Assembly: GCF_003846445.2 (NCBI RefSeq)
Contig: NZ_CP030139.2
Coordinates: 620,001-684,000 of the forward strand
Length of the DNA stretch: 64,000 nt
Reading direction: 5' to 3'
From: Synechococcus elongatus PCC 11801
GTDB lineage: Bacteria; Cyanobacteriota; Cyanobacteriia; Synechococcales; Synechococcaceae
Numbering within the stretch: the stretch's first letter is position 1; every line of letters begins with the position of its first letter. Both the position numbers and the translations under genes were made by a program. The notes under the pieces were generated by a model. It was not told the DNA's origin, did not search any database, and saw only the letters and a list, made by a program, of their open reading frames with translations. Positions 40,287 to 43,764 of this stretch are shown one piece after another.

Positions 40287-40331
40287 AAAGGGAGCGAGCA
40301 GCCGACTATTGTCGGAGCTAGCTCCTTTTTG
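40287..40331 (+). terminator. Terminator after typA
   Basis: Outer stem AAAGGGAGC/GCTCCTTTTT and inner stem CCGAC/GTCGG (about 40302-40314) are followed by TTTTT. It lies directly in front of the ATG of the next gene. Confidence 0.82.
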
Positions 40332-40341
40332 TTGGCAATTT

Positions 40342-41139
40342 ATGGCGGCCATTCTCGCGGCAGTTACGGCGATCGCTGCGATCGTGCTCTATTTTGTGCG
40401 CCGTCATTATCGGATCAAGCTCCAGAGCTTGCTGTTGGCACAACCTGCCAATAGCCGGCAGCTCAAGGAAATCGCGGATCATGTAGCTGGTGAGATTGGC
40501 GCGGGCAGTTTGCGTCAATACGTCAAAATGTGGGGCGCGATCGAGGTCGACCAGCCGTTGATTTCGGAATTAAAAGAAGAGCCCTGCGTCTACTACAGCT
40601 TTACAGTCAGCCGCGAATACGAAGAGCGTGTCCGCCAAGAAGACAGCGAAGGCAAGGTGACTTGGACGACGGAACGCCGCTCGGAAACAATCAGCCAGAA
40701 CCGTCGTAGTACCCCTTTTTATCTGCGGGATCAGCATGGCCGGATTCGCGTGGAACCTGAGGCTGCTTCGATTGCGACGATTCCTGTCCTAGATGAATTT
40801 CGGCCTGCAAGCTCCACAAACAGTTTGAGTTTTGGCGGCTTTTCGCTCAGTTTGTCGGTCAATGGCGGTACTGGTAAGACCCTGGGCTATCGCTACCGCG
40901 AGGAAATTTTGCCCTGCGATCGCTCGATCCTCGTCGTCGGGGCTGCCAGTGATGAAACGGGTGAATTGACGCTCGGCCCCAGTACGGAAGCGCGCCAGCA
41001 GTTTTTCATTGCTCTCAAACCTGAGAATGCCGTGTTGCAAGAGGTCAAACAGACGATTCAGTGGGTGACGGTTGGTGGGATCGCCAGTGCCGGTGTCGCA
41101 GCTATCAGTGCGATCGCAGCACTCCTCAAGTTGTTCTAA
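40342..41139 (+). CDS. GIDE/BAM-domain membrane protein (MUL1-like)
   Basis: 265 residues from ATG 40342; an in-frame TTG at 40309 lies inside the terminator stem and is unlikely. It has an N-terminal membrane anchor (AAILAAVTAIAAIVLYFV), then a soluble beta-rich domain with CVYYSFTVSREYEE and GYRYREEILPCDRSILVVG, and a C-terminal hydrophobic helix (VGGIASAGVAAISAIAALLK). This is the two-anchor topology of the GIDE/BAM domain of mitochondrial MUL1 E3 ligases, without a RING finger. Prokaryotic function is unknown. The start is only 11 bases beyond a T-run and has no evident Shine-Dalgarno, so expression may depend on readthrough. Confidence 0.75.
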   Translation: MAAILAAVTAIAAIVLYFVRRHYRIKLQSLLLAQPANSRQLKEIADHVAGEIGAGSLRQYVKMWGAIEVDQPLISELKEEPCVYYSFTVSREYEERVRQEDSEGKVTWTTERRSETISQNRRSTPFYLRDQHGRIRVEPEAASIATIPVLDEFRPASSTNSLSFGGFSLSLSVNGGTGKTLGYRYREEILPCDRSILVVGAASDETGELTLGPSTEARQQFFIALKPENAVLQEVKQTIQWVTVGGIASAGVAAISAIAALLKLF

Positions 41140-41247: not shown

Positions 41248-43764
41248 ATGGAAACAATCGAGAAACAGCGTTGGCTAGCAGAGAACACTTTATTTTCGGG
41301 CTTATCAGAGCGGGCAATCACGGCGATCGCCACTGAACTGACTGAAGTCCCCATCGAAAGCGGTCAACTGTTGATTGATCACGGTACGGTACCAACCGCT
41401 TTGTTCATTCTGGTGAGCGGCGAACTCGATCGCCAGAATCCTCAAACAGGGACTTGCGATCGCCTCCTGCCAGGTAGCGTGCTCAATTTGCAAGAGATCC
41501 TGCTCCGTCAACCAATCAACCAGCGCGTGACGACTGCTTCCGCTGCCTTGATCTGGCAATTGTCCGCAGATCAACTAAGGGCAATCGCAGCAGACTTCAG
41601 TGAACTCGATCGCCACCTCTCTGTCCAATTGGCGGCAGCTCTAGATGCTGTCACTGCTCAGCTACAGTTTGAGCAGGCACGGCTGCGGGAGTTGCAACCC
41701 TACGTTGTCCCCAAAATGCGGCGTGGGATTGTCGGGAGTAGTCGCTATGCCCAGCGGCTGCGGCAAGACATTCGCCAGGCAGCAGCGCGCCGCGATCGCC
41801 AGCCAGTGTTAATTTTTGGCGAGCCAGGTCTGGGTAAGGACAACATTGCCGCGCTGATCCATTTCGGATCGCGCGATCGCCGTGAGCCCCTGATCAAAAT
41901 CAACTGCAATACGCTGCAACCCAACGGTGTCGAGCTCTTTGGCCGTGCCAACGAACGGCGAGGGCTGCTGGATTGGGTTGGCAAGGGCACAGTGTTGCTC
42001 AACAACGTCCAAGAACTGCCGGCTGATCTGCGATCGCGGGTGATTGAGCTCCTCGCCACAGGCTACTATCGACCGCTGTCGACGCTGCAAGTCCCAGAAC
42101 CGGAACCTCATCCCTGTCTGGCACGCCTGATTTTGGTGGCAGAAACTAATCCCACTGATTTGGCGCGGCACTGTGCTCAAACCATCAAAGTGCCGCCCCT
42201 GCGGATCCGTAAGGCTGATATTGTCGCTAGCGTCAAATACTTCCTCAGTCGCTTTTGCCAAACGCGGCGGCAGCCTCGCCCCAAGCTCACGCCAGAAGCC
42301 GAGCGCCAGCTCCAGAACTACGACTATCCCGGCAACATCACCGAGCTGGAAAGCCTGGTGGAGCGGGCTTTGGTACAAAGCGGGCAAGCAGCCGTGCTGA
42401 CCGAAGATGTCTTTTGGTTTGCCTCGACCAAAGGTGATCGCTTCCGCTGGAATCTACTCAACGCCTATCCTCGCCTGCGGCAACTACTGCGCAGCGATTG
42501 GTGGCCAACGCGCATCAACTACGGTCTGATTCTAGGGGTTTACACCGCCGTCGTGGCCCTGCTGTTTTTAGGACCGCAGACACGCGCCGAGAATGTGGGG
42601 CTGACGCTGTTTTGGGCGGGCTGGTGGCCGCTGATTCTGCTGGCGTTCCCCTTCGTGGGGCGGCTTTGGTGTGCCTATTGCCCCTTCATGATCTACGGCG
42701 AGTTAGTGCAGTGGATATCACTGAAGCTTTGGCCGCGATCGCTTTTACCTTGGCCCCGAGCAGCGGCAGAACGCTGGGGCGGCTGGTTTCTCTTTGGCCT
42801 CTTTGCCCTAATTCTGCTCTGGGAAGAGCTCTGGCACCTCGAAGATGTCGCTTGGTTGTCGGCCTGTCTGCTGCTGCTGATTACCGCTGGAGCGATCACG
42901 TTTTCACTGCTGTTTGAGCGGCGGTTTTGGTGTCGCTATCTCTGCCCCATTGGAGGGATGAATGGGCTGTTTGCCAAATTAGCGGTGATTGAACTGCGTG
43001 CCAAACGCGGCGTCTGCTCGGCCACCTGCAATACCTACCAGTGCTACAAAGGTGGCCCTGAAAAAGGGGAAGGCCAAGAAACGATGGGTTGCCCGGTCTA
43101 TTCCCATCCAGCTCAGCTGGTGGATAACCGAAACTGCGTCCTCTGCATGACCTGTCTCAAGGCCTGTCCCCATCGCTCTGTGGAACTGAATCTACGACCG
43201 CCAGCGATCGAACTCTGGACAACTCATGTGGCAACGCGATCGGAAGCATCGCTTCTATTCCTCTTGCTAGGTGCTGTATTTCTGCACCATCTGCCCCAAA
43301 TTGCCCAGGTCTTTGGGTTAGGCGATCGCTGGCTGACATCCTTAGGGTTGCATGCCATTTTGGCAACGGCTGTGCTGGGTGCCCCAGGACTACTGGCCTT
43401 TTTCAGCGATCGCTTGCTCCACCTGTGGCAACCCCGTCTGAAATCTTTGACAGAACTGGCTTATGGCTACTTGCCCTTGGTGTTGGCAGCAAGCGTGGCT
43501 CATTACCTCTGGATGGGTTTGACGGAATTGGGACAAATTCTGCCTCGGACAGCACTCAGCTTTGGCTGGCCCAGCACGGGGCTACTGCAATACAGCGTTG
43601 ATCCTGCGGTCATTGCCTTTCTGCAAGCGAGCAGCCTGATCTTGGGTCTAGTTGCCACCCTGTTGGTCACGCAAAAAATTGCCCGTCAGCCCTGGCGATC
43701 GCTCTTGCCACAACATGGTTTAGCCGTAGGCTTCACCAGCCTGCTCTGGCAATTGATTGTCTAA
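41248..43764 (+). CDS. Fusion of cNMP-like, degenerate sigma54-type AAA+ and membrane polyferredoxin domains
   Basis: 838 residues. Residues about 10-130 resemble a cyclic-nucleotide-binding domain with an altered phosphate cassette. Residues 165-400 match the sigma54-activator AAA+ fold: Walker A GEPGLGKD at 191-198, but the Walker B acids are replaced by NN (252-253), the GAFTGA loop is missing and no HTH follows. From about 430 a NapH/CcoG-like membrane part begins, with WCAYCP (Cys475/478) and WCRYLCP (Cys562/566). A cluster CNTYQC (594) and a 4Fe-4S motif NCVLCMTCLKACPH (Cys630, 633, 636, 640) follow, then further helices to the C terminus. Cyanobacteria lack sigma54, so a transcription-activator role is unlikely. 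It is better read as a membrane redox protein with a ligand-sensing cytoplasmic head (inference). Confidence 0.85.
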   Translation: METIEKQRWLAENTLFSGLSERAITAIATELTEVPIESGQLLIDHGTVPTALFILVSGELDRQNPQTGTCDRLLPGSVLNLQEILLRQPINQRVTTASAALIWQLSADQLRAIAADFSELDRHLSVQLAAALDAVTAQLQFEQARLRELQPYVVPKMRRGIVGSSRYAQRLRQDIRQAAARRDRQPVLIFGEPGLGKDNIAALIHFGSRDRREPLIKINCNTLQPNGVELFGRANERRGLLDWVGKGTVLLNNVQELPADLRSRVIELLATGYYRPLSTLQVPEPEPHPCLARLILVAETNPTDLARHCAQTIKVPPLRIRKADIVASVKYFLSRFCQTRRQPRPKLTPEAERQLQNYDYPGNITELESLVERALVQSGQAAVLTEDVFWFASTKGDRFRWNLLNAYPRLRQLLRSDWWPTRINYGLILGVYTAVVALLFLGPQTRAENVGLTLFWAGWWPLILLAFPFVGRLWCAYCPFMIYGELVQWISLKLWPRSLLPWPRAAAERWGGWFLFGLFALILLWEELWHLEDVAWLSACLLLLITAGAITFSLLFERRFWCRYLCPIGGMNGLFAKLAVIELRAKRGVCSATCNTYQCYKGGPEKGEGQETMGCPVYSHPAQLVDNRNCVLCMTCLKACPHRSVELNLRPPAIELWTTHVATRSEASLLFLLLGAVFLHHLPQIAQVFGLGDRWLTSLGLHAILATAVLGAPGLLAFFSDRLLHLWQPRLKSLTELAYGYLPLVLAASVAHYLWMGLTELGQILPRTALSFGWPSTGLLQYSVDPAVIAFLQASSLILGLVATLLVTQKIARQPWRSLLPQHGLAVGFTSLLWQLIV

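Follow-up and report, generated by a model that had tools for sequence, protein, structure and literature searches.

The gene and its family

The window analysed here, a stretch of 64,000 nucleotides from Synechococcus elongatus PCC 11801, carries on its forward strand, at positions 41248-43764, a single open reading frame that begins with ATG, encodes 838 amino acids and contains no internal stops. Profile searches with Pfam and NCBIfam place in its product, in this order, a weak cyclic-nucleotide-binding (CNB) domain (cNMP_binding, aa 35-115, 2.7e-7), a σ54-activator AAA+ core (Sigma54_activat, aa 161-279, 1.1e-14), an AAA+ lid (AAA_lid_14, aa 319-387, 3.4e-14) and two Fer4_5 matches (4e-8), with the NapH/MauN model of NCBIfam covering aa 469-647 (E about 6e-16 to 2.2e-15). 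The features are listed below, with the evidence for each in brackets.

41248..43764, + strand: whole gene, fusion of a CNB-like domain, an apparently dead bEBP-type AAA+ domain and a NapH-like membrane Fe-S module (open reading frame, Pfam, relatives)
41275..41595, + strand: CNB-like domain with degenerate phosphate-binding cassette, aa 10-116 (Pfam PF00027, alignment to PKA-R 5j3u, column counts)
41596..41727, + strand: helical linker between CNB-like domain and AAA+ core, aa 117-160 (AlphaFold secondary structure, helix 119-152)
41728..42198, + strand: bEBP-type AAA+ core, aa 161-317 (Pfam PF00158, Foldseek)
41818..41841, + strand: degenerate Walker A, GEPGLGKD, Asp198 replacing Thr/Ser, aa 191-198 (alignment)
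41935..41988, + strand: site of the GAFTGA loop, shortened and without the motif, aa 230-247 (alignment)
41986..42006, + strand: Walker B, GTVLLNN, both acids replaced by Asn, aa 247-253 (alignment)
42199..42423, + strand: AAA+ lid with conserved LR(V/I)RKxD and D(F/Y)PxN, aa 318-392 (Pfam PF25601, alignment)
42508..43005, + strand: four-helix membrane core with cytoplasmic Cys-Pro motifs CAYCP (475-479) and CRYLCP (562-567), aa 421-586 (invariant Cys, hydropathy, positive-inside)
43006..43197, + strand: cytoplasmic ferredoxin-like domain with 8 Cys and two presumed [4Fe-4S] clusters, aa 587-650 (Pfam, alignment)
43198..43761, + strand: extra C-terminal membrane part of about five helices, past the NapH model, aa 651-838

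The structure prediction that the earlier note had proposed, run with AlphaFold on a 17-sequence alignment (mean pLDDT 74.8, pTM 0.47), returned a beta domain of the CNB type followed by a long linker helix, then an AAA+ fold and roughly nine helices in the membrane, and it modelled the ferredoxin part poorly, at a pLDDT of about 30. The fusion protein occurs once in the genome. A defence-system library gave only generic AAA+ (RtcR-type) and CNB matches, and literature searches under guessed S. elongatus locus tags for the gene gave no match.

Family matches were found in 107 of 386 genomes of the phylum, with full-length relatives across many cyanobacterial families, and 18 cyanobacterial loci, some partial, were recovered from GTDB contigs. 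Our alignment holds 97 fused relatives, a few genomes being represented twice; these were counted within genomes and contigs of the cyanobacterial phylum, and the count does not imply that the fusion is exclusive to cyanobacteria. The union of AAA+ and membrane Fe-S parts described in the earlier note is thus a property of the family, and a fusion created by sequencing or assembly error, which that note had named as a danger, is ruled out by these relatives; only a few of the sequences are split or bear stops (L011, L015, L068, L085, L086 and L069). In the last of these (genome G276), a large in-frame deletion has removed the interior, so that the beginning of the CNB domain abuts the C-terminal membrane part; it is probably a remnant.

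The 97 sequences fall into four groups: a (70 sequences, including the window protein); n, three a-like sequences without the CNB domain; b, 14 sequences from one family with small genomes, likewise without it; and c, ten sequences mostly 38-39% identical to the window protein, with the CNB domain in all but one. Groups b and c each form one clade in the tree.

A bEBP-type head without catalytic residues

Foldseek searches with the head model retrieved NtrX, VpsR and NtrC1 at E-values of 1e-11 to 1e-12, which places the fold among the enhancer-binding proteins, and the departures from that type lie in the functional motifs. According to the earlier note, Walker A was kept; this does not hold, since the Thr/Ser that ends the motif is replaced by Asp198, and both this Asp and Lys197 are present in 100% of the 87 sequences that make up groups a, b and n. 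In these groups the P-loop reads GEPGL[E/G]KD, the second Gly being usually Glu and remaining Gly in the window. The Walker B region, GTVLLNNVQ in the window, has Asn in place of both acids, as had been noted, with Asn252 in 97% and Asn253 in 96% of the 70 group-a sequences and the NN pair in 65 of the 70; the n sequences also carry NN. The full motif state KD/NN/E is found in 65/70 of group a, and KT/DN in most of group c. Group c keeps the P-loop end G-x4-GKT and mostly the Walker B Asp, its Walker B being mostly DN, and all ten of its sequences have Asn where the catalytic Glu would stand. In group b, D[Q/N/C] predominates and that position is more variable. There is no conservation at the arginine-finger position in the alignment, and the sensor-II Arg, found in 93% of group b and 36% of group a, is Thr in the window protein.

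The spacing from LFG to GTL, within which the GAFTGA loop would lie, is 14 residues in 73 of 85 measured relatives versus 22 in PspF. A GA[FY]T motif occurs in none of the 97 aligned sequences, and GAFTGA is likewise absent from the window protein. The comparison across homologues suggested in the earlier note therefore shows the missing loop to be common to all groups, while the NN pair is conserved only in a and n. A Pfam scan of the window protein found no HTH domain, in agreement with the same note, the lid running directly into the membrane part.

Within group a, the mean column identity is 0.59 for the AAA+ core and 0.63 for the lid, close to the 0.58 of the C-terminal membrane part; it is 0.79 for the membrane core, highest at 0.87 for the ferredoxin part, and 0.40 for the CNB domain. 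Because core and lid match the C-terminal membrane part in identity, the head appears to be maintained: by its pattern of conservation it is a pseudo-enzyme under constraint without its catalytic residues, and not a domain in decay. Given the differing P-loop and Walker B states, nucleotide binding is unlikely for the window protein and plausible for group c, and the Asn that a and c share at the catalytic-Glu position suggests that hydrolysis was lost before these two groups split.

The CNB-like domain was examined by alignment to PKA-R (5j3u). In the window protein the Glu of the phosphate-binding cassette (PBC) is replaced by Leu81 and the Arg by Ile90. In group a, 67 of 70 sequences have Leu at the Glu position, and the Arg position is mostly T, A, S or V, with Arg outside the five commonest residues. 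Binding of cAMP or cGMP by the group-a domain is thus unlikely, as its pocket lacks the phosphate-binding Glu and a conserved Arg, and the earlier description of a cNMP sensor loses its footing.

The genomes agree with the statement of the earlier note that cyanobacteria lack σ54. The S. elongatus PCC 11801 genome has no match to σ54 (PF04552), control genomes being positive, and only two of the 386 genomes of the phylum pass the cut-off for its DNA-binding domain, strongly in just one; absence of σ54 has been published for 29 cyanobacteria (PMC3162934). The sole strong match (62 bits; L141, genome G117) may reflect transfer or contamination. No further strong bEBP-type AAA+ protein was found in the S. 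elongatus genome. Elsewhere in the phylum, a member outside the window's class (L070, genome G100) encodes a protein with two tandem bEBP AAA+ domains, one with GAYTGA, the other with GSFTNA, and each with DE; G100 is nevertheless absent from the genomes that match the σ54 DNA-binding domain. In the window protein, the AAA+ domain is best read as the reused head of a membrane module for electron transfer.

The membrane Fe-S module and its genomic setting

Twelve cysteines, at positions 475, 478, 562, 566, 590, 594, 599, 615, 630, 633, 636 and 640, are invariant in 97/97 sequences; the earlier count of eight or more was right about their ordered arrangement and is replaced by this number. Four belong to the invariant Cys-Pro motifs C475xxC478P and C562xxxC566P, the first of which is CxxCP and not CX3CP. 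The ferredoxin-like domain holds the other two sets (590, 594, 599, 615 and 630, 633, 636, 640), arranged as an atypical C-x3-C-x4-C-x15-CP (590-616) and a classical CX2CX2CX3CP (630-641), from which two [4Fe-4S] clusters are presumed. Hydropathy and positive-inside counts predict that the N-terminus and every Cys-bearing loop are cytoplasmic. In the C-terminal membrane part, E666, Y739 and E760 are invariant and H752 is largely conserved.

Since the window protein scores 58.7 bits against the curated NapH cut-off of 213, we describe it as containing a NapH-like module and do not file it as NapH. We infer from these motifs that the module could oxidise quinol and transfer electrons. Its membrane-only AlphaFold model found no solved relative by Foldseek. 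The module also exists without the head: a standalone protein on a Deinococcus ficus plasmid matches it in all twelve Cys and in the C-terminal membrane part. Its gene lies near a heavy-metal P-type ATPase gene and overlaps by 4 bp a gene (L140:9042-9968) for a His-rich protein of unassigned family, apparently secreted or membrane-anchored. More distant relatives of the module occur in haloarchaea, in Sulfurovum and in rhizobial FTR1-type iron operons; the rhizobial one, which lacks most of the ferredoxin Cys, sits inside an FTR1/cupredoxin/P19-type operon.

No conserved neighbours of the group-a gene were found, a link to psbB being confined to one family, and neither a regulator gene nor a metal gene was seen conserved beside the cyanobacterial fusions. 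Just upstream in the window (40309-41139) lies a gene for a membrane protein with a GIDE domain (MULAN-like 'E3 ubiquitin ligase', Pfam 5e-46), which we rejected as a partner because this neighbourhood is not kept at other loci; a GIDE gene also occurs about 3.5 kb from the haloarchaeal relative of the module (L147). The ffh gene lies 5.8 kb downstream of the family gene in two relatives, a position that the slr1529-slr1531 gene order in Synechocystis presumably fits, and we take slr1529 ('ntrX') to be probably a member of this family.

Group c has a distinctive setting. At 8 of 13 c loci (L059, L060, L061, L063, L064, L068, L138 and L139) the c gene is immediately followed, in the same orientation, by a gene for a cysteine synthase (cysK), the two being 5-19 bp apart in some of them; none of about 75 other loci has this arrangement (Fisher 2e-8, the Fisher tests ignoring kinship). 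This cysK is a second paralog, and a canonical copy lies elsewhere in all six sampled genomes that have the c-linked gene. Sulfide:quinone reductase (SQR), the identity of the query being confirmed via PDB 3hyv, is found in 7 of 11 c genomes versus 28 of 375 others. On two plasmids (L138, L139) additional petC and psbA genes lie at most about 12 kb from the c gene, and one of the two also has DsrE, rhodanese and SQR genes near it. Sharing an operon with a dedicated cysteine synthase, group c probably has sulfide and cysteine metabolism as its partner pathway. Two c relatives without cysK (L065, L066) adjoin genes whose translations look, by eye, heterodisulfide-reductase-like. The window has a cysK of its own, which was discarded as a functional link: it runs on the strand opposite to the fusion gene and corresponds to the canonical copy (74-80% to the canonical cysK of c genomes), the c-linked cysK being a different paralog at 54-59%.

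Interpretation and comparison with known systems

The domain anatomy is firm. We consider it rather probable that the gene product is a membrane electron-transfer protein, linked to quinone or ferredoxin, whose dead head serves as a docking, assembly or regulatory platform and not as a transcription activator. It would be a membrane [4Fe-4S] protein of the NapH/NosR/CcoG/FtrD type, in which the membrane part would take electrons from quinol or ferredoxin and, by way of the cytoplasmic clusters, deliver them to a partner. For its part, the head would act non-enzymatically through protein contacts, by assembling a dimer or ring or by docking a soluble redox partner, and these contacts would recruit that partner or tune the transfer. 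Most likely, an enhancer-binding protein gave rise to the head and was fused with a membrane ferredoxin module within the cyanobacterial lineage. In the proposal of the earlier note, the reuse of the AAA+ domain as a head for such a module is the best fit; the head may bind protein, and nucleotide binding is unlikely in the window protein. Against the electron-transfer reading stand the lack of conserved neighbours in group a that would name a donor or acceptor, the low model confidence in the ferredoxin part, the membrane module's lack of a solved relative in Foldseek, the CxxCP form of the first Cys motif, the NapH score far under its cut-off, and possible ATP binding by group c. A more specific idea, which we put forward as tentative and doubtful, is that the dead AAA+ domain organises the membrane [4Fe-4S] module and links that module with a soluble enzyme as its partner, which in group c would be the dedicated cysteine synthase; if so, membrane electron flow and sulfide/cysteine metabolism would be physically linked in cyanobacteria.

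Other readings share parts of this evidence. The protein may be a membrane redox sensor, a minority possibility that we take seriously, and not an electron-transfer enzyme; the Fe-S/quinone module would read the redox state of plastoquinone or ferredoxin, and the head would signal it to a partner such as a kinase, a transcription factor or, in the manner of VpsR, DhaR or TyrR, the σ70-RNA polymerase. The head is indeed of the bEBP type, VpsR, one of the nearest solved structures, likewise has no GAFTGA and reads LLLND at Walker B, NosR and RdhC were initially viewed as regulators (PMC5928378), and the knock-out of slr1529, the probable relative, is among mutants with altered central metabolites at 72 h (PMC5318462). 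However, the protein is membrane-anchored and lacks a DNA-binding domain, no regulator is conserved in its neighbourhood, and the best-conserved part is the membrane module, which stands alone in Deinococcus and haloarchaea. A nucleotide switch, in which binding of ATP without hydrolysis, or of a cyclic nucleotide, gates electron transfer, is rather unlikely. Lys197 is invariant, Asp198, Asn252, Asn253 and Glu299 are strongly conserved together in group a, which would suit the upkeep of a remodelled site, and the sound P-loop of group c, combined with an Asn that replaces the catalytic Glu, gives a hydrolysis-dead, binding-competent pattern; but group a lacks the Mg-coordinating Thr/Ser, both Walker B acids and conserved arginine fingers, Glu and Arg are missing from the CNB pocket, and the 14 group-b relatives have no CNB domain at all.

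That the protein is a metal reductase or another metal-related electron sink of the CcoG or FtrD type, regulated by the head, seems quite improbable, although the rhizobial and Deinococcus relatives of the module have the iron-operon and heavy-metal ATPase contexts described above and CcoG is a cupric reductase (PMC8456105). The slr1529 transcript, which if orthologous would speak for a metal link, falls to 0.29 under copper (PMC4182526) and shifts under iron deprivation (PMC3516471). The cyanobacterial fusions conserve no metal gene, and a fall under copper is unlike the response of a detoxifying reductase. An artefact or a decaying pseudogene has a negligible chance of being the explanation: the few interrupted relatives are outweighed by 97 fused ones with invariant Cys and a constrained head.

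A family matched in about a quarter of the sampled genomes of the phylum, and labelled for example as nitrogen assimilation or sigma-54 regulatory protein, belongs to a phylum essentially without σ54, and membrane iron-sulfur protein is the better description of it. It also offers a well-conserved natural example of a regulator AAA+ domain turned pseudo-ATPase, of which group c, with a sound P-loop and the catalytic Glu lost, may show an intermediate state of degeneration; the operon that unites c and a second cysteine synthase, in SQR-bearing genomes, is a concrete lead on the coupling of sulfide, cysteine and membrane electron flow.

Among known systems, NapH, NosR and RdhC have four membrane segments and two CX3CP motifs in common and a role in quinol-linked electron transfer, NapH receiving electrons from menaquinol, and NapH and NosR bear two C-terminal [4Fe-4S] motifs (PMC5928378). 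The four-helix membrane core with two Cys-Pro motifs is shared with NapH/MauN (TIGR02163), NosR and RdhC/PceC. Unlike NapH, NosR and RdhC, the window protein has an extra C-terminal membrane part and a CNB/AAA+ head and lacks a periplasmic FMN domain, and no nap or nos partner genes were seen conserved near the cyanobacterial fusions. RdhC was itself first taken as a transcriptional regulator (PMC5928378), and by analogy the correction made for RdhC, from a regulator label to a membrane redox protein, appears to apply to the cyanobacterial family too.

The head shares its AAA+ core and lid with the σ54 enhancer-binding proteins NtrX, NtrC1, PspF and NifA (Pfam 1e-14, Foldseek 3e-12), and differs from them in lacking GAFTGA, the Walker B acids, the HTH and conserved arginine fingers, in its Asp for Thr/Ser in the P-loop, in its membrane anchor and in a genome without σ54. 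VpsR, DhaR, TyrR and HupR are promoter-binding regulators. They too have lost GAFTGA (VpsR, PDB 7v2b; PMC3162934), and VpsR has an altered Walker B (LLLND), but none of them carries a membrane Fe-S module as the window protein does. As rare enhancer-binding proteins also lack the HTH (PMC3162934), its absence alone is not decisive.

CNB-AAA_ATPase proteins likewise fuse a CNB to an AAA-type domain, with a variable PBC arginine and, in some, membrane regions; these regions are described as ABC-transporter-like, versus Fe-S in the window's family, where their PBC consensus GEMALLSGQERKASVIA is largely lost (PMC2246266). The FtrD-like protein of FTR1 iron operons is related distantly in sequence, via the standalone Deinococcus module. 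The module presumably also resembles CcoG, as a membrane Cys-Pro protein. CcoG and FtrD-like proteins have no head, and their metal operon context is not found around the cyanobacterial fusions. The individual modules (CNB, AAA+ and NapH-like Fe-S) are known; the three subfamilies and the operon of group c with cysK are new.
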